Of a stretch of DNA of 41,359 nucleotides, positions 16,784-37,582 are shown piece by piece (position 1 is the stretch's first letter; each line of letters starts with the position of its first letter). The position numbers were made by a program, and so were the translations under genes. The stretch is taken from assembly GCA_020726265.1 (NCBI GenBank), contig DYSZ01000014.1, forward strand, positions 1 through 41,359, in the 5' to 3' direction. Source of the DNA: Draconibacterium orientale. GTDB taxonomy: Bacteria > Bacteroidota > Bacteroidia > Bacteroidales > Prolixibacteraceae. The notes below the pieces were generated by a model. It saw only the letters and a list, made by a program, of their open reading frames with translations, was not told the origin of the DNA and searched no databases.

Positions 16784-17485
16784 TTGCCAATGGACGAATA
16801 CAAAAAACTCAACATTAAAGATTGGGCAGCAGAAGACCGCCCGCGCGAAAAGCTGTTAAAAAACGGGGCTCGTTCATTATCTGACGCCGAGCTTATTGCA
16901 ATTCTCATTGGTTCCGGAAATCTTGAGGAAACAGCCGTAGAACTTTCACGGCGGATTCTCGCTTCAGTAGATAATAATCTGAATGACCTCGGCAAAAAAA
17001 GTGTTGGCTCATTATGCAGTTTTAAGGGAATTGGCGAAGCAAAAGCAGTTACCATTGTTGCTGCCCTTGAACTTGGCAAACGCCGGAAAGAAGCCGATGT
17101 TTTCATCAAAAAGGTGATTAATGCCAGTAAAGATGCTTTTGATTATTTTCAACCAATGCTTGGCGACCTCGGGCACGAAGAGTTTTGGGTGATGCTGCTC
17201 GATCGGGGTAACAAAATTCAGGATACTTTCCGAATCAGTCAGGGCGGAATTTCAGGTACGGTAATCGATGTTCGAATCATCCTGAAACCTGCACTCGAAA
17301 AACAGTCGAGTTACATTATCCTTTGTCACAATCACCCCTCCGGGACATTGCGGCCTTCAGACTCCGATCGCGTGATAACCTCTAAAATTAAAGACGCAGC
17401 AAAACTGATGGATATTTCGGTAATCGACCACGTAATTATTGGGCAAAACAAATACTTTAGTTTCGCAGACGAGGGATTGTTGTAA
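16784..17485 (+). CDS. radC: DNA repair protein RadC (JAB/MPN domain)
   Basis: 233 aa; ILCHNHPSGTLRPSDSD metalloprotease-like motif. Confidence 0.95.
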   Translation: MPMDEYKKLNIKDWAAEDRPREKLLKNGARSLSDAELIAILIGSGNLEETAVELSRRILASVDNNLNDLGKKSVGSLCSFKGIGEAKAVTIVAALELGKRRKEADVFIKKVINASKDAFDYFQPMLGDLGHEEFWVMLLDRGNKIQDTFRISQGGISGTVIDVRIILKPALEKQSSYIILCHNHPSGTLRPSDSDRVITSKIKDAAKLMDISVIDHVIIGQNKYFSFADEGLL

Positions 17486-17497
17486 CAACTGAAAAAC

Positions 17498-18826
17498 ATG
17501 GAAATGATACTTTTTTATTCCGAAAAAATAACACCACGCATTGAGTACATTGTAAAACTGTATTTCGAACAGATATTGCAGGTAAAAGTTTTGTTTACAA
17601 GCGATTTCATGGAATTTAAAAATGCTGAATCAGCAAAAATAAACTACTCCGGTCAACCTTTTAAAGGCGGAATTTATTTAAAACCGCATCCTCTGCTATT
17701 CGAAAGTGAAATAAGTGTAAAGAAACCTGAAACTGTTGATTATAAAAACGCGCAATATTTTTTCCCTTCTTCTGCTGATTCTTTTTTGCCCTTCGATTTG
17801 TTTGCAGCCGGATTTTATCTCGTAACCCGGTACGAAGAGTATATTATTGCCGAAAGGGATCATTATGGGCGTTTTATTGCCGGCGAAAGTATTTTGTTTA
17901 AAAACCAGTTGTTAAAAAAGCCGGTGATTAATCTTTGGGCCGAAATGTTGGCCAGCGAAATCAGCAAAACATATCCTCAATTTGCCTGGCCCGAACGAAA
18001 ATTCAGCTTCTTATCGACCATTGATGTTGATAATGCCTGGGCATACCGGCACAAAGGTTTTTCGAGAACAACCGGAGCGCTCACCAAGTCGTTATTGAAA
18101 GGCCATTTAATTGAAGTATTTGAAAGAATTGCAGTATTGTTGCGAATTAAAAACGACCCGTATGATAATTATAGTTTTATTGATTCGGTTTTTGAGGGCA
18201 ACGAAAAGTTAGTACGTTTTTTCTATTTGCTTGGCAATTACAGCAGGTTCGACAAAAATATTTCACACAGAAATCTGCGTTACAGACAGTTAATCAGAAA
18301 AACTAAAAGACACTACCTTGTGGGTATTCATCCTTCGTTTGCTGCCGCAACAGACAAAAGAGGGAAGATATTAAAAGAAGAAAAACAAAGGCTTGCCAGA
18401 ATAACCGGCTCATCAGTAGAAATCAGTCGTCAGCACTATTTGAAAATCGAATTTCCAACAACTTTCCGAAACCTGATGAAGGCAGGAATTTTCAAAGATT
18501 ATTCGTTGGGATATGCATCAGCCACAGGGTTCAGGGCTGGTATTTGCACTCCGTTTTATTTTTATGATCTCGAACGTGAAAAGACAACCGAATTGCTGCA
18601 AACCCCTTTTCAGGTGATGGATGTTACGTTACTGCATTATCTTGATCTTGAACCGGATCAGGCCTGGGATGAAATTCTGACTTTGATGGATGAAGTTAAA
18701 AATGTGAATGGCACTTTTGTTTCGGTTTGGCATAACGAATCGGTTAACGACCGAGGTCATTGGAAAGGCTATCGCGAAGTATTTGAAAAGATGAACCAAC
18801 TTGGATTTCGGTGGGCAAATGAATAA
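17498..18826 (+). CDS. polysaccharide deacetylase family protein (DUF7033-like N-terminus)
   Basis: 442 aa; FLPFDLFAAGFYLVTRYEEY, FSFLSTIDVDNAWAYRHKG, YLVGIHPSFAA. Start may be 17504. Confidence 0.8.
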   Translation: MEMILFYSEKITPRIEYIVKLYFEQILQVKVLFTSDFMEFKNAESAKINYSGQPFKGGIYLKPHPLLFESEISVKKPETVDYKNAQYFFPSSADSFLPFDLFAAGFYLVTRYEEYIIAERDHYGRFIAGESILFKNQLLKKPVINLWAEMLASEISKTYPQFAWPERKFSFLSTIDVDNAWAYRHKGFSRTTGALTKSLLKGHLIEVFERIAVLLRIKNDPYDNYSFIDSVFEGNEKLVRFFYLLGNYSRFDKNISHRNLRYRQLIRKTKRHYLVGIHPSFAAATDKRGKILKEEKQRLARITGSSVEISRQHYLKIEFPTTFRNLMKAGIFKDYSLGYASATGFRAGICTPFYFYDLEREKTTELLQTPFQVMDVTLLHYLDLEPDQAWDEILTLMDEVKNVNGTFVSVWHNESVNDRGHWKGYREVFEKMNQLGFRWANE

Positions 18827-19730
18827 TGGATTACAATACATTTCCAACAATAAAATTGATTTCAAAAAATGGGATCGTTGTTTAGCCTGTGCCAACAATT
18901 CAAGGGTTTATGCTTTTTCGTGGTTTCTTGATCGTACTGCTGAAAAATGGGATGCTTTGGTGTGGGGTGATTATGAATTTGTAATGCCGCTGCCAGTTCG
19001 GAAAAAATGGGGAATCAGGTATGTTTATCAACCCGTTTTCTGTCAGCAACTTGGGATTTTTCCTGAACCTCCCATTTCTGTTCAAGAGCAATTTGTTGGG
19101 TTTCTTTCAGGAAAATTCAGGTATATTCAAATACAGGTTACTCCGCAAATTAATCAGGATGTTTTTTCAAAGTTTGAAGTAACTGAAAAAGCAAACCTTG
19201 TTTTGCCGCTTATGGCAGATTATAAGGGTATTGCGCTGCAGTTTTCGCAAAACGTGAGGCGGAATATTGTCAAAGCAGGAAAAGAAGGTATTTCTGTGGT
19301 TCGCGGTCTTAATCCGGCAGAGTTTATCGACGGGAAAAAAACATCTGATTTAGCAAAGTCAAATCCAAAAACGTTTGAAAATTTATCGCGAATTATGTCA
19401 TTTTCGATTTCGGAAAGTACAGGAATTATATACGCGGCATACACCCAGCAGAATGAATTGTGTTCGGCAGCGTTTTTTCTGCAATCGGGAACACGAGTGG
19501 TTTACCTGAGCGCTTTTTCAACATCTGAAGGAAAGCGGAGCAACGCGATGCACCTTATTGTTGACGAGTTTATCCGCGATTATGCCGGTTCAGGTAATTT
19601 GCTCGATTTCGAAGGGTCGTCAATTGAGGGAGTTGCAAGATTTTACAAAGGATTCGGGGCTTTTACAGAAACCTATTATCTGCTTAAATACAACCAGCTG
19701 CCTTTCCCGCTTAATATGATAAAGAAATAA
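18819..19730 (+). CDS. FemAB/GNAT-like N-acyltransferase
   Basis: Starts MNNGLQYISNNKIDF at 18819 (overlaps upstream stop, ATGAATAA); QNVRRNIVKAGKEGISV and ARFYKGFGAFTETYYLLKYNQLP are typical of the Acetyltransf_6/FemAB fold. Confidence 0.75.
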   Translation: MNNGLQYISNNKIDFKKWDRCLACANNSRVYAFSWFLDRTAEKWDALVWGDYEFVMPLPVRKKWGIRYVYQPVFCQQLGIFPEPPISVQEQFVGFLSGKFRYIQIQVTPQINQDVFSKFEVTEKANLVLPLMADYKGIALQFSQNVRRNIVKAGKEGISVVRGLNPAEFIDGKKTSDLAKSNPKTFENLSRIMSFSISESTGIIYAAYTQQNELCSAAFFLQSGTRVVYLSAFSTSEGKRSNAMHLIVDEFIRDYAGSGNLLDFEGSSIEGVARFYKGFGAFTETYYLLKYNQLPFPLNMIKK

Positions 19731-19731
19731 A

Positions 19732-20757
19732 ATGGAGCGTAAAATTGTAAGAAGATTTGTTTCACGGGCAGCCTTAATTACACCATTCAGCTGGCTTGAA
19801 AAAATGTCGGCACAACCGATGATTTTTCCATTTTATCATGTTGTCAGCAATTATAATTTACCTTATATCAGTAATATTTATCCCATTGTTTCCGAAAAAC
19901 AATTCAGAAACGACCTTGAATTTTTGCTTTCATATTACACCCCTGCAACATTTTCGGATGTAATACAATTTGTACAGGGCAGAAGAAAACCCGGAAAACC
20001 ATCATTCTTTTTAACCATCGATGATGGTTTTGCACAATGTGAAACAGTAATTGCCCCGGTTCTTAAAGAATTGGGAATTGAAGCTACATTTTTTGTTAAT
20101 CCGGCTTTTATCGATAATCAAGTCATTTCGCACAGGCAGAAAATTAGTTTTATACTTGAAAAGTATGCGGGAGCAAACAAAACAGAAAAAATTGCGATTG
20201 CAAAAATAACAGGAGTGCAAACGCACAATACAAAATCAAACATCAGTTCATTGAAAAAACTGAATGCCGGCAATATTTCTATAATCGACGAAATTGCCGA
20301 TGTTCTTGAAATTGATTTTGGTAAACTAACTACTGAATTCAAACCGTATTTATCACTCAGAGCGTTGAAAAAGCTCCATTATGAGGGCTTTCATATAGGT
20401 TCGCATGGGTTCGATCATAAGGAATTTCAATTGATGCAGCCATCAGAAATGAAACAGCAGATTGAAGAAAGTTTTTCATGGCTCGAAACGCATCTGAAAA
20501 TCGAAAAACGCATTTTTTCGTTTCCATTCACCGATCACAACATTTCGCTTTCATTTTTCGAATATTTGCAAAACGAAGCAAATGTATTGCTGAGTTTTGG
20601 CACAGCCGGCTTGAAATATGATTCGGCTTCCCGTCATATTCAGCGTATTCCGGCCGAAATGCATGGATTCACCTCGTTACGTCAAATACTGAAGGCTGAG
20701 TATTTATATTATCTTGCAAAAAAGCCGGTAAACAAAAACCTGATTGTCAGAAAATGA
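19732..20757 (+). CDS. polysaccharide deacetylase (NodB-like)
   Basis: 341 aa; FFLTIDDGFAQ (motif 1 DD), GFHIGSHGFDHKEF (motif 2 HxxxH). Confidence 0.85.
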   Translation: MERKIVRRFVSRAALITPFSWLEKMSAQPMIFPFYHVVSNYNLPYISNIYPIVSEKQFRNDLEFLLSYYTPATFSDVIQFVQGRRKPGKPSFFLTIDDGFAQCETVIAPVLKELGIEATFFVNPAFIDNQVISHRQKISFILEKYAGANKTEKIAIAKITGVQTHNTKSNISSLKKLNAGNISIIDEIADVLEIDFGKLTTEFKPYLSLRALKKLHYEGFHIGSHGFDHKEFQLMQPSEMKQQIEESFSWLETHLKIEKRIFSFPFTDHNISLSFFEYLQNEANVLLSFGTAGLKYDSASRHIQRIPAEMHGFTSLRQILKAEYLYYLAKKPVNKNLIVRK

Positions 20758-22244
20758 ACCTGTTAGAAAAATATCATGAAGCTTTTATGCGGTTTTCAGG
20801 CTATGAAGCATTTTCGGATGGAGTAAAGAAAATTTCATATAAACAATTTTCAGTTTTAGTACAGTCGTGTCGCAACCTTCTCGAACAACAACCTAGCTAT
20901 TATCCTGGCTGTGCAGTAGGTGTTTTGCACACCGAAAAGGCAGAAACCTATGCTGCAATCTTTGCTATTTGGTTTGCCGGCGGATATTTTGTTCCGCTAC
21001 ATCCTGCGTCACCCGCGCAATACAATTCCTCAATAATCAATAATCATAAAATAAGGCTTGTGTTTGTACCGGATGGCACAAATGAATTTTTGTTTCATAA
21101 TGTTCATGTTTTAACGGTTTCCGAAAGCGGAGATCAGCCTTTACAACCGGTTCTTCAGCGAAATGATTGTGATGTTTTGTACGTCTTAAATACTTCGGGA
21201 AGTACCGGTGTTCCTAAAAATGTACCAATCAACCTTAAAAATATTGAAGCATTTGTTGATGGATTTCTCGATTTGTATACCGAATTAAATGCAACTGATA
21301 AATACCTTCAGACATATGATCTAACTGCAGATGCGGCTTTTACAGGGTATCTCATACCATTGCTCACTGGTGCTGCAGTTTATACAGTTCCGGCAGGTCA
21401 TTTCAAACCTTTTCAGGTTGTTAAAATTCTTTCTGAAAACCCGATTACCTGGGTACAGGTAACACCGTCGCTACTTGCCTGTTTGCAACCTTTTTTCGGT
21501 TCACTCTGGTTTAACGGAATCAAACATTTTCATTTCGGAGGAGAAGCATTGCCCATACAATTAGCAGAAGAGTGGCGAAAGCATGTCCCGAATGCTGAGA
21601 TTTCGAACGTATATGGACCTACCGAAACAACCATAACAGCCACAATTTATAAGTGTTTGCCTGGCGAATCAATAAAATCACGCCATCAGATTGTTTCAAT
21701 TGGAAAACCTTTAAAAAAGGTTTTCATAAAAATTACCGGAGAATTTGTCGGAGATAATAAATCTGGCGAACTATATATCGGTGGTGCTCAGGTGATGGAT
21801 AATTACCTTTTTACCCAAGACCAGCCATTTGAAATTACAGGATCAGAAGGTACATGTGAAAAATATTATCCATCGGGCGACTGGGTTGAAACTGACGACG
21901 ATGGGTTTCTTTATTTTGTAACACGCAAAGATGACCAGATAAAAGTAAACGGGTACCGGGTTGATTTAACCGAAATTGAAAACCTTACAAGAGAATTTAC
22001 CGATGGTAGAAATACCGCAGCCGCGGCAATTGAAGTTTCGCCGGGATTGAAAAAGCTAATTGTATTTGTCGAGAATTTTGAGGGAGAAACGACAGAAATA
22101 ATAAAAATGCACACTCAAAAACTACCCTTTTACAAGGTGCCCGGAGAAATTGTTGGTACAGGTACTTTCCCATTATCAAATTCTGGGAAAACCGACCGTA
22201 AAAAACTATTGGCGAATTACTTCGAATCGATTAAAGATGAATAG
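20754..22244 (+). CDS. AMP-binding / NRPS-like adenylation enzyme
   Basis: 496 aa; A3 LNTSGSTGVPKNVPI, A4-like TYDLTADAAF, A5 NVYGPTETTITAT, A7/A8 YPSGDWVETDDDGFLYFVTRKDDQIKVNGYRVDLTEIE, A10 LSNSGKTDRKK. Confidence 0.93.
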   Translation: MNLLEKYHEAFMRFSGYEAFSDGVKKISYKQFSVLVQSCRNLLEQQPSYYPGCAVGVLHTEKAETYAAIFAIWFAGGYFVPLHPASPAQYNSSIINNHKIRLVFVPDGTNEFLFHNVHVLTVSESGDQPLQPVLQRNDCDVLYVLNTSGSTGVPKNVPINLKNIEAFVDGFLDLYTELNATDKYLQTYDLTADAAFTGYLIPLLTGAAVYTVPAGHFKPFQVVKILSENPITWVQVTPSLLACLQPFFGSLWFNGIKHFHFGGEALPIQLAEEWRKHVPNAEISNVYGPTETTITATIYKCLPGESIKSRHQIVSIGKPLKKVFIKITGEFVGDNKSGELYIGGAQVMDNYLFTQDQPFEITGSEGTCEKYYPSGDWVETDDDGFLYFVTRKDDQIKVNGYRVDLTEIENLTREFTDGRNTAAAAIEVSPGLKKLIVFVENFEGETTEIIKMHTQKLPFYKVPGEIVGTGTFPLSNSGKTDRKKLLANYFESIKDE

Positions 22245-22983
22245 TTCGGTTGAAAATATGTATGCTTTTTACCGAGCAGTGGGTGAAACCGAACAGGTTA
22301 GCTTACATGAAAATATTTGTTATGAGGCTGTTACCGCGCACTTCGGAAATTGGCCGCAAATTCTGTTTTGGTTTAAGTTCGGGAATAAAATCGAAGAAAA
22401 TGTCAGATTGACGTTGAGTGAATTGGCTATTGGAGATTCAAGAATGGTTGCGATTTGTAATGCAAATGATTTGTTGCTGATCAACCAGGATAAACTCAGA
22501 AAAGAAAATATTTTTCCAGTCGAAGTTTGGGAGACAATGCAAATTAATTTCGATCCGGGATTAAAAGCAGAATTACTTACCGGATTCGAACCTCATAAAC
22601 TGGTTACACAAAAGCAACTCGCCGATTTTACCGAACTTGTTAATTTGCATATGTTGCGCGAAGTAAAAATATCCGAAACCTTGTTTCCTCTTTTATCACT
22701 GAATAAGCAGTTTGAATTTTATGGTGTGTATTCAGAAGGAAAATTGATTTCCGGACTGATGACTTTTTCAACTCAAGGAACAAGTGGGTTGTATTTTATT
22801 GTTACACGAATTGAAATGCGTGGCCACGGAATTGCTGAATATTTAATTCGCAAAACCATCCATCGGTTATTTGAAAAAGAAATAGAAAATGTAGTTTTGC
22901 AGGCAGTTGGTAAGGCGGTGAATTTATACCGCAGAATTGGTTTTCAACCTACCGGAAAGCTTGTGATATTGACAAAAAACTAA
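22237..22983 (+). CDS. GNAT family N-acetyltransferase
   Basis: Start at 22237 (ATGAATAG overlap with upstream stop); IVTRIEMRGHGIAEYLIRKTIHRLF (RxxGxA) and VNLYRRIGFQPTGK. Confidence 0.8.
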   Translation: MNSSVENMYAFYRAVGETEQVSLHENICYEAVTAHFGNWPQILFWFKFGNKIEENVRLTLSELAIGDSRMVAICNANDLLLINQDKLRKENIFPVEVWETMQINFDPGLKAELLTGFEPHKLVTQKQLADFTELVNLHMLREVKISETLFPLLSLNKQFEFYGVYSEGKLISGLMTFSTQGTSGLYFIVTRIEMRGHGIAEYLIRKTIHRLFEKEIENVVLQAVGKAVNLYRRIGFQPTGKLVILTKN

Positions 22984-22985
22984 CA

Positions 22986-23228
22986 ATGAATCGACAGGAA
23001 ATTACCAGTAAAACACTGGAAGTGTTTCGGAAAGTATTCGGAAGTCAAACACCGGTTACTGAAAATAGTTCGGCGGAAAACATCGATAAATGGGATTCAC
23101 TCAATCATATTCTGCTGATTCAGGAACTGGAAAGAACCTTTCAACTTAAATTCGATCTTTTCGAGATTATCGAACTCAAAGATGTTCAGGGAATAATCGA
23201 TTATATTTTCTCAAAATCAGAAAAATGA
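22986..23228 (+). CDS. acyl/peptidyl carrier protein
   Basis: 80 aa; IDKWDSLNHILLIQELERTFQLKF with DSL phosphopantetheine motif. Confidence 0.93.
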   Translation: MNRQEITSKTLEVFRKVFGSQTPVTENSSAENIDKWDSLNHILLIQELERTFQLKFDLFEIIELKDVQGIIDYIFSKSEK

Positions 23229-24301
23229 TTATTCGGGAGGTAAAAGTATCGGAGTTGAATGAATTCGTTGAAAGCGAATTATTTACCTCTTTCGATATTA
23301 AGCCTCTTACTCCGCAAAGAGCATTTTCGCAACTCAATAATCCTTTTGCAAAACCTGATGATGTGGCACTTGTTTTTGCTGTCGAAGATAACCGTTTACT
23401 TGCCTTTGCCGGTTTGTTACCCGACATGCTCGCAACGGGTGAAAGAATTTCGTGTAATTCAAACTGGTGGGTAAAACCTGGCAGCAATTTCCTTGCGATT
23501 CCGGTTCTTTTGAAAGCTCTCGAAAAATGTAATCACCAGATGTTTTTTACCGATTGTAACCTGAAAACCAAAACCATTCTTGAGAAAACAGGGCTTTTTG
23601 AATTTAGACCTGAAATAACGGGCAAAAGATTTTTTTTACGCAGTTGTTTTGGTTCTGTATTACAGCGAAGAAAAAAGGCAAAACTTTTGATTGTGGCTGC
23701 TCGTATTTTTGATTTCGTGATTAACCCTGTTTTAAATATTATAACAAAAAGCTTTTTGCTGTTTGTTGATCGTTCAGGATTCACGATTCAGCCGGCTTCA
23801 GATTCTGATAAATCCATTGCACAATTTATTACCGAAAACTCAGGCGATGATATCTTGAGCCAATCGGTGCAAAAACTGAACTGGATAATAAATTTCCCAT
23901 GGTTAAAAACTGAACACACACAAGAAGAACTGGTTTACCCGTTTTCGAATGTAGTTAAAAACTTCAGCCAAAATTTGCTTGTGGTAAAAAGGCAAAACGA
24001 AATTGTTGGTGTACTGATAATTAGCCTTGTGAATGGAATGGCATCGATTCCCTTCATTTATTACAAAAGGCAACATATTTCCAACATCACAATACAAATC
24101 AGGTTATATCTGAAATTGGTTAAAGCCAACAGCATTGTAGTTTTTAACGATGAGGTTGCCAGTGCATTTGCAAACAATGGATTGTCGTTTTTTTTCACAC
24201 GAAAAATTAAGCGGATTGCCGGATATGCAGTTCAATTGAAAGATAAAATAAATAGAAATAAATATTTTCAGGATGGCGACGGCGACGTTGCTTTTACATA
24301 A
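23225..24301 (+). CDS. GNAT-like acyltransferase (possibly two GNAT modules)
   Basis: 358 aa; ATGA overlap with the ACP gene; VALVFAVEDNRLLAFAGLLPD and NLLVVKRQNEIVGVLIISLVNGMA look like two GNAT beta-hairpins. Confidence 0.6.
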   Translation: MIIREVKVSELNEFVESELFTSFDIKPLTPQRAFSQLNNPFAKPDDVALVFAVEDNRLLAFAGLLPDMLATGERISCNSNWWVKPGSNFLAIPVLLKALEKCNHQMFFTDCNLKTKTILEKTGLFEFRPEITGKRFFLRSCFGSVLQRRKKAKLLIVAARIFDFVINPVLNIITKSFLLFVDRSGFTIQPASDSDKSIAQFITENSGDDILSQSVQKLNWIINFPWLKTEHTQEELVYPFSNVVKNFSQNLLVVKRQNEIVGVLIISLVNGMASIPFIYYKRQHISNITIQIRLYLKLVKANSIVVFNDEVASAFANNGLSFFFTRKIKRIAGYAVQLKDKINRNKYFQDGDGDVAFT

Positions 24302-24313
24302 AACTTTAAACTT

Positions 24314-24976
24314 ATGGACATAAAAATTTTAGGCAACAATCACTCAATTCTCGATCAGTACCTGTCTGAAATCAGGGACGAAGTAATTCAGAAAGACCCG
24401 ATGCGTTTCAGGGAGAACATGTACCGGATAGGTGAGATTTTTGCTTACGAAATAAGTAAAACACTAAAGTTTGAAGTTGCGCCAGTAACAACCCCGCTCG
24501 GAGTGGCGCAAGTGCCTGTTTTGCAGCAACAACCTGTGTTGGCCACAATTCTCAGGGCTGGTTTGTCGGTGCACAACGGGTTGCTGAAGATTTTCGATAA
24601 AGGCGAAAACTGTTTTATTTCAGCCTACCGGAAATACACCGAGGAAGGCGATTTTGAAATTGCATTTGAATACATGGCTTCTCCATCGCTCGACAACAAA
24701 GTTGTCATTCTTTCCGACCCGATGCTGGCTTCCGGAAAATCGATGGAGATTGGCTATCACGCGCTATTCAGTAAAGGTTCGCCATCGCATGTACATCTGG
24801 TTTCAATCATTTCGAGCCAGCAAGGTGTGAACTACCTCATTGATAAAATCAGAGCCGAAAATGTGACGCTTTGGCTGGGCGCCATCGACGAAGGAATGAC
24901 ACCGCACTCGTACATTGTCCCGGGGTTGGGCGATGCAGGGGATTTGGCTTACGGCGAAAAAATTGATTCAAAGTAA
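24314..24976 (+). CDS. upp: uracil phosphoribosyltransferase
   Basis: 220 aa; ILRAGLSVHNGLL, VVILSDPMLASGKSMEIGYHAL, PGLGDAGDLAYG. Confidence 0.95.
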   Translation: MDIKILGNNHSILDQYLSEIRDEVIQKDPMRFRENMYRIGEIFAYEISKTLKFEVAPVTTPLGVAQVPVLQQQPVLATILRAGLSVHNGLLKIFDKGENCFISAYRKYTEEGDFEIAFEYMASPSLDNKVVILSDPMLASGKSMEIGYHALFSKGSPSHVHLVSIISSQQGVNYLIDKIRAENVTLWLGAIDEGMTPHSYIVPGLGDAGDLAYGEKIDSK

Positions 24977-36797: not shown

Positions 36798-37582
36798 TTT
36801 TCAACACATCGTACCCGTAACGGGCAATGAGAATGGTAACCACAATCAGGAAGAAAACCCTGATAAACCGGTTGCCATTTTTAATGGCCATCCGGCTGCC
36901 AATGATACTGCCGGCAATATTTCCGATTGCCATTATAATGGCAATTCCCAAAAAGATAATTTCCCTGGCGGATAAAAACAAAAAGCGCTGAAACGTTGGT
37001 GGCGCAGTTAATTATTTTTGAATAGGCTGAAGCAGCTACAAACTCGAACCTCAGCAAAACCACAAAACCCAGAACCATAAAACTACCTGTTCCGAGACCA
37101 AAAAAACCATCGTAAAAACCAACAATCAGCCCTAACAAAGAGCCAAACAGAAGTTTTTTGTTTTCAGAAAGTGATTTCGACTGAACTGTTCCCAAATCTT
37201 TTTTCAGAAAAGTATAAATGCCAATCAAAACAAGAATGACAAGAATAGCTGGTTTCAGTACTGCCGGATTGATGATGCTGACAGTTTTTGCACCAGCAAA
37301 CGAAGCCACAAATGCAAAAAATGCAACTGTAAGCAACAGTTTAAAATTGTAACGAATGTGCCGCGAATATTGAACTACAGCCATTGAAGTTCCGGCCAAT
37401 GCCGAAATTTTGTTGGTGCCAAAAAGCGTGGGAACCGGGGTGTTCGGAAAACCAATTAAAAGCACCGGCAATTGAATCAATCCGCCACCACCAACTACCG
37501 AATCGATAAAACCGGCAATAAAAGCGAGAATTCCCAGAACTGCAAGTGTCAAAAAGCTTACATCAGAAAAGAGTGAATTCAT
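36790..37582 (-). pseudogene. TSUP family (TauE/SafE) permease split by a frameshift near 36975-36990
   Basis: Frame 1 (36881-37582) runs ...KIINCATNVSALF; the continuation LFLSAREIIFLGIAIIMAIGNIAGSIIGSRMAIKNGNRFIR lies in another frame (36790-36981). Removing one T from CTTTTTG restores the frame. Confidence 0.8.

Follow-up and report, generated by a model that had tools for sequence, protein, structure and literature searches.

What is made by seven tightly packed genes lying between radC and upp in Draconibacterium orientale (Bacteroidales; Prolixibacteraceae), on which sugar do they act and from which donors are they fed? These genes occupy positions 17498–24301 of contig DYSZ01000014.1 (assembly GCA_020726265.1), the whole 41,359-nucleotide stretch that we analysed and refer to below as the window. 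The original prediction had described them as a seven-gene cassette which deacetylates a glycan and re-acylates the freed amines from a carrier-bound group with GNAT-type enzymes. We find that the locus is a real operon which varies the Vim-type deacetylate-then-aminoacylate logic in a new way, by the addition of a non-ribosomal loading module. As to function, we consider it rather probable that its products carry out two successive ‘acetyl out, amino acid in’ steps on a cytoplasmic amino-sugar precursor. Gene order, homologies, motif states and module swapping were computed, and from these we infer the catalytic steps, the donors, the pairing of the enzymes and the glycan.

Examination of the sequence and its open reading frames placed all seven genes, g1–g7, on one strand with the coordinates and junctions originally described: g1 and g2 overlap by ATGAATAA at 18819, a 1-nt gap at 19731 separates g2 from g3, g3 and g4 overlap by ATGA at 20754 and g4 and g5 by ATGAATAG at 22237, a 2-nt gap (22984–22985) lies between g5 and g6, and g6 and g7 overlap by ATGA at 23225. 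The genes and the two flanks of the slot, with the evidence for each assignment, are as follows.

16784–17485, + strand: radC, conserved left flank of the slot (NF000642; synteny)
17498–18826, + strand: g1, DUF7033 plus CE4-type deacetylase, VimE homologue by sequence (PF23019, NF053580, hhalign, invariant residues)
18819–19730, + strand: g2, predicted FemX-like aminoacyltransferase, VimA homologue (g2 profile, hhalign, AF2 fold search)
19732–20757, + strand: g3, NodB-like (CE4) deacetylase (PF01522 with DDG and HxxxH motifs)
20754–22244, + strand: g4, stand-alone adenylation domain (A-domain) of non-ribosomal peptide synthetase (NRPS) type (PF00501, TIGR01733, pocket code)
22237–22983, + strand: g5, GNAT acyltransferase with the coenzyme A (CoA) loop RGHGIA, optional (PF13673)
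22986–23228, + strand: g6, stand-alone carrier protein with its phosphopantetheine Ser in WDSL (weak PF00550; Ser-bearing orthologues)
23225–24301, + strand: g7, tandem GNAT of carrier type, CoA pyrophosphate loop lost, C-terminal QDGDGDV (AF2, loop comparison, tree)
24314–24976, + strand: upp, uracil phosphoribosyltransferase, conserved right flank of the slot (NF001097; synteny)

None of the locus proteins has a hydrophobic stretch comparable with that of a TatC control, save one such stretch which lies in strands of the g7 model. As the proteins are without clear membrane segments, g1–g7 are probably cytoplasmic, and an intracellular precursor is a likelier substrate than the assembled glycan first proposed.

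When 100 genomes from the family were searched with g4, 12 proved to have orthologues at the radC–upp locus, and in the regions fetched the order radC-g1-g2-g3-g4-(g5)-g6-g7-upp recurs with g4 identities of 32–55%. With named contigs included, the A-domain is found in 14 distinct loci, most of them from Prolixibacteraceae, and wherever the contig extends as far as the g6 position, in 13 A-containing loci counting that of the window, there is a carrier orthologue, always with its phosphopantetheine Ser. Because gene order is kept in about 14 Prolixibacteraceae-type genomes, the full-order locus is a conserved operon and not a chance arrangement. Adenylation domain and carrier accompany the deacetylases in every A-containing radC–upp locus, and the neighbourhood check placed the genes in this slot and not at the end of a capsule or NRPS gene cluster. 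The cassette as first described is not indivisible: g4–g6 come and go, whereas g1–g2 persist. Indeed, g1 is far commoner than g4, occurring in 75 of the 100 family genomes and also in Flavobacteriaceae, Chitinophagales-type and other Bacteroidales genomes. The slot holds g1-g2 alone across Bacteroidia, g1-g2-g3 with a CoA-type g7 (g7′) in most relatives, the full set in a patchy subset, or g1-g2-g3 together with a sulfotransferase or methyltransferase, and the seven-gene unit is thus one state of a wider radC–upp locus and not a free-standing cassette. Cultured species of Draconibacterium (D. orientale, locus L051) and Sunxiuqinia have the g1-g2-g3-g7′ state. The sulfotransferase stands at the g7 position, mostly on the opposite strand, in loci L163 (6258–7154, − strand), L047, L049, L166, L172 and L175.

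The first pair, g1-g2, links the locus to a known pathway. The only NCBIfam match of g1 is the VimE model NF053580 (6.4e-47, 160 bits, below its equivalog cut-off of 440 bits), in addition to a match with DUF7033 (PF23019) at 2.6e-31; on this comparison g1 is a homologue of VimE and not an equivalog. Residues D176, D178, H278, H313, R346, D375 and H412 are invariant in the g1 family, the CE4 metal-binding Asp/His residues being among them. When aligned by hhalign, g1 matched true VimE at 2.4e-41 and g2 matched VimA at 1.4e-23, and a profile built from cassette g2 proteins alone recovered the VimA proteins encoded next to true VimE (1.6e-31 and 4.8e-16); g2 and VimA both carry the motif DFEGS, after which come FF/FY and FGA. 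Six of 197 Bacteroidales genomes encode a VimE which scores above the curated cut-off, and two of the six show the order recA-vimA-(PIG-L)-vimE-glycosyltransferase, matching the vimA-vimE-vimF order of Porphyromonas. The PIG-L-type deacetylase between vimA and vimE lies at L211:9326–9961 in a Bacteroidales genome of this order. In the gum pathogen Porphyromonas, the role proposed for VimE is to take the acetyl group off C2 of the Wbp sugar, after which VimA would add serine or glycine; mass spectrometry and the exchange of genes support these roles (PMC7468200). An identification of the pair with two tandem Flavobacterium spreading genes was also considered and dropped, as the published description shows no sign of a match.

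The family search gave only a weak FemAB match for g2, and a search of solved structures by sequence alone found no homologue, so that a fold search was required. The AlphaFold2 (AF2) model of g2, with a predicted local distance difference test score (pLDDT) of 94, has a tandem-GNAT FemX fold whose best PDB matches are the aminoacyl-tRNA-dependent enzymes Sbb17, Sba18, FemX, FemA, A-PGS and MprF, the first two of which act on streptothrisamine (PDB 9wqw, 9wqy; 13–14% identity). Judged by this modelled fold, g2 probably uses aminoacyl-tRNA as its donor, and the carrier-fed acyltransferase proposed for it originally is improbable, although g2 could in principle use a carrier as well.

The loading module consists of g4 and g6. 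The g4 protein matched the AMP-binding family PF00501 at 4e-49 and the AA-adenyl-dom model TIGR01733 at 3.5e-70, below the cut-off of the latter, and it has the motifs NTSGSTGVPK, NVYGPTETT, YPSGDW, KDDQIKVNGYR and SGKTDRKK, the last with the A10 lysine K479; like the carrier Ser and the deacetylase DD and HxxxH, these were present as predicted. Its ten-position pocket code, the extraction of which had been proposed in the original prediction, reads DATQHGVITK and has related codes in ten orthologues, and the equivalents of Asp235 and Lys517 (D193 and K479 in g4) are invariant in the 11 sequences. An invariant Asp235 in A-domains indicates an α-amino acid substrate, and because its equivalent is invariant here, the code indicates that g4 activates an α-amino acid. 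Several orthologues have T239, K278 and G301, which we take to be features of Asp/Asn codes; the window has Gln at position 278, and no amino acid is assigned. The phosphopantetheine Ser of g6 lies within W(D/G)S(L/M) in all 13 sequences. Lying between them, g5 matched GNAT PF13673 at 3e-8; since most copies retain a CoA-type loop and the gene occurs in one locus without A-domain and carrier, g5 is unlikely to be a carrier-dependent transferase. It is also absent from some A-containing loci.

The second deacetylase, g3, matched Polysacc_deac_1 (PF01522) at 1.6e-16 and has TIDDG and SHGFDH motifs, its DDG and HxxxH being kept in all 59 homologues. No g7 was found without g3 among 44 loci, some of which were obtained in duplicate because two collections hold them. 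The family search with g7 gave no match and profile comparison found no homology between g7 and g2; the AF2 model of g7 (pLDDT 88.8) is a tandem GNAT, and GNAT and FemX folds were recovered in the fold search. Where g4/g6 are missing, 24 of 25 complete g7′ sequences keep a CoA pyrophosphate loop of the form R-R/G-x-G-x-S/A in their N-terminal GNAT domain, whereas none of the 13 g7 proteins from loci with A-domain and carrier has the canonical loop, which is at least one residue shorter, with KGxGLA kept in three. All of these g7 proteins form one clade (96/94) in the tree, and the A-domain comes and goes together with the carrier and the carrier-type g7, the three alternating with CoA-type g7′ or with nothing. 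This pattern suggests a donor switch of g7 from acyl-CoA to aminoacyl-carrier. Weighing against this, the loss is confined to a single clade, i.e. one evolutionary event carried along, and therefore reflects linkage and not repeated independent evolution. All aligned g7 and g7′ proteins share a near-invariant C-terminal QDGDGDVxFT motif (24250–24298 in the window).

With respect to history, loci with the A-domain are dispersed over the g1 tree (12 changes, a fit no better than that of shuffled labels), and g4 distances correlate with those of g1, RadC and Upp (r 0.86–0.92). Because g4 distances track these neighbours, we favour an old module which has been lost repeatedly, gain and loss being inseparable here; a single recent transfer is unsupported, as the distances follow RadC and Upp even though presence is patchy. 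A role in anti-phage defence was rejected, there being no PADLOC matches. A second module family of this kind was seen at L041:14061–17414 (genome G091), where two tandem stand-alone A-domains and a carrier stand in another gene context without g1–g3.

A 2-epimerase gene adjoins g1 in nine other Bacteroidia loci, between radC and g1 (L079:8850–10001, L084, L085, L087, L093, L098, L102, L110 and L111). For the one epimerase tested, the best solved relative was a UDP-2,3-diacetamido-2,3-dideoxy-glucuronic acid 2-epimerase (372 bits, compared with approximately 135 for several ordinary UDP-GlcNAc epimerases), and five of the nine loci additionally carry, before g2, genes for an AAC(3)-type N-acetyltransferase and another deacetylase-like protein. 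Because alternative modules and a WbpI-type epimerase are found between radC and upp, the slot resembles a locus for sugar editing in which modules can be exchanged.

In the mechanism that we propose, VimE-like g1 would strip an N-acetyl group from the amino-sugar precursor, and VimA-like g2, with its FemX fold, would aminoacylate the amine thus exposed, with aminoacyl-tRNA as the probable donor. In a second round g3 would take off another acetyl group, g4 would adenylate an α-amino acid and load it on to g6, and g7, without a CoA-binding loop, would move it from g6 to the amine, with g5 as a CoA-dependent acyltransferase which is optional. The modified sugar would then join a surface glycan, either lipopolysaccharide (LPS) or possibly a type IX secretion system (T9SS) linking sugar. 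The core of the original prediction, amino-sugar deacetylation followed by carrier-fed aminoacylation by GNAT-fold enzymes, fits this evidence; its extension to g2 probably does not.

Which glycan receives the sugar is where the explanations diverge. Were the locus to build the sugar which links T9SS cargo to LPS, the added amino acid would supply the amine which the PorU sortase uses as acceptor, as does the product of VimE and VimA in Porphyromonas. Such a role is consistent with the g1/g2 homology and with the source genome, which encodes PorU, 54 type A T9SS sorting domains and, on contig 305, a wbpE-wbpD-wbpB cluster (WbpB 9.5e-109 to PDB 3oa2; wbpE and wbpD named by sequence appearance), while a search of this genome for the WbpI epimerase found none; linking sugars vary by species, with some pathways unknown (PMC11969387). 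In the family, PorU is present in 74 of 75 genomes with g1 and 18 of 25 without it (P=2e-4, uncorrected for ancestry), an association confounded by shared ancestry. Several distributions weigh against it: WbpB shows no correlation with g1 in the family (52 of 75 compared with 18 of 25; P=1), and it is missing from four of the 12 A-positive genomes, so the substrate may not be a Wbp sugar. At the phylum level, PorU is absent from 11 of 28 genomes with full-length g1 and was likewise rejected as a phylum-wide partner, many PorU-bearing genomes are without g1, and WbpB occurs in only about a third of the genomes with full-length g1. Since so many g1 genomes are without PorU, T9SS anchoring is a lead for the source organism and not the general role of g1-g2. 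The locus also contains no VimF-type glycosyltransferase, and overall we regard the linking-sugar role as unlikely. A broader proposal, in which a surface glycan, possibly this linking sugar, is doubly aminoacylated from aminoacyl-tRNA (g2) and aminoacyl-carrier (g4/g6/g7), with g7 lineages switching between CoA and carrier donors, is tentative and somewhat less doubtful.

The two pairs may instead modify a sugar which belongs to O-antigen, to the LPS core or to a general protein O-glycan, unrelated to T9SS, with g4/g6/g7 as one interchangeable decoration module, and here we find the balance even. In other loci the slot is taken by a CoA-type GNAT, by a sulfotransferase or methyltransferase, or by the AAC(3)-type enzyme with its deacetylase-like companion, and g1-g2 is found in genomes without PorU, but the locus has no glycosyltransferase, flippase or polymerase which would name such a glycan. 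Stand-alone A-domain/carrier pairs occur in NRPS clusters, and g4/g6 might also be a secondary-metabolite pair releasing a free aminoacyl product, or an activator of fatty or hydroxy acids, for which the deacetylase neighbourhood is incidental. The weak match of g6 to PP-binding PF00550 (0.004, below cut-off), which also counts against our assignment of the carrier, would agree with this. The gene order shared by about 14 loci, whose distances look like those of vertical descent, the change of g7 type together with g4/g6, the lack of a thioesterase, condensation domain or transporter at the locus and the invariant Asp235, which points to α-amino acids, all argue the other way and make it very improbable.

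Returning to two-step aminoacylation of an amino sugar, the closest precedent is the Wbp/Vim pathway of Porphyromonas gingivalis and Tannerella forsythia (PMC7468200), with which the locus shares an adjacent deacetylase/aminoacyltransferase pair (g1 resembling VimE, g2 VimA), a WbpI-type epimerase in some g1-g2 operons and WbpB in the source genome; half of the locus thus already has a known model, which the original prediction had missed. It differs in lying at radC–upp and not at recA, in the score of g1 under the VimE equivalog cut-off, in its second deacetylase/transferase pair and A-domain/carrier module, and in not being tied to the distribution of PorU or WbpB. The streptothricin-type enzymes Sba18 and Sbb17, the best structural matches of g2, belong to an antibiotic pathway, in which they presumably attach an amino acid to an amino-sugar amine, and we know of no CE4 deacetylases linked to such systems. 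A similar mix of functions is found in the XrtA/PEP-CTERM exopolysaccharide locus (TIGR03006 deacetylase, TIGR03019 FemAB, TIGR03098 ligase), which is defined to include an exosortase and a glycosyltransferase; neither is in the present locus, and its weak matches to all three models fall far below their cut-offs. DltA and DltC are likewise a stand-alone A-domain and carrier (g4 against the DltA model, 1.3e-47, below cut-off), whereas the radC–upp interval contains neither DltB (an MBOAT protein) nor DltD and has a cytosolic GNAT transferase instead. In the open-licence literature we found no description of carrier-dependent sugar aminoacylation or of the present locus. Elsewhere in the window, a TauE/SafE-like permease reading frame (36881–37582, − strand) has C-terminal residues which appear out of frame, a possible frameshift or assembly error.

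The amino acid donor of VimA is not named (PMC7468200), and the pathway which adds alanine to the Prevotella linking sugar is stated as unknown (PMC11969387). With an amino acid-activating enzyme and carrier beside VimE/VimA homologues, the donor question becomes directly testable. The operon shows how a sugar-decorating transferase may shift from a CoA to a carrier-protein donor, and the comparison points to a probable function for the deacetylase/FemX pair which Bacteroidia have conserved. If the proposed mechanism is true, the locus would represent an unreported route to an aminoacylated surface sugar, with a second round fed by a loading module in the style of antibiotic synthetases.

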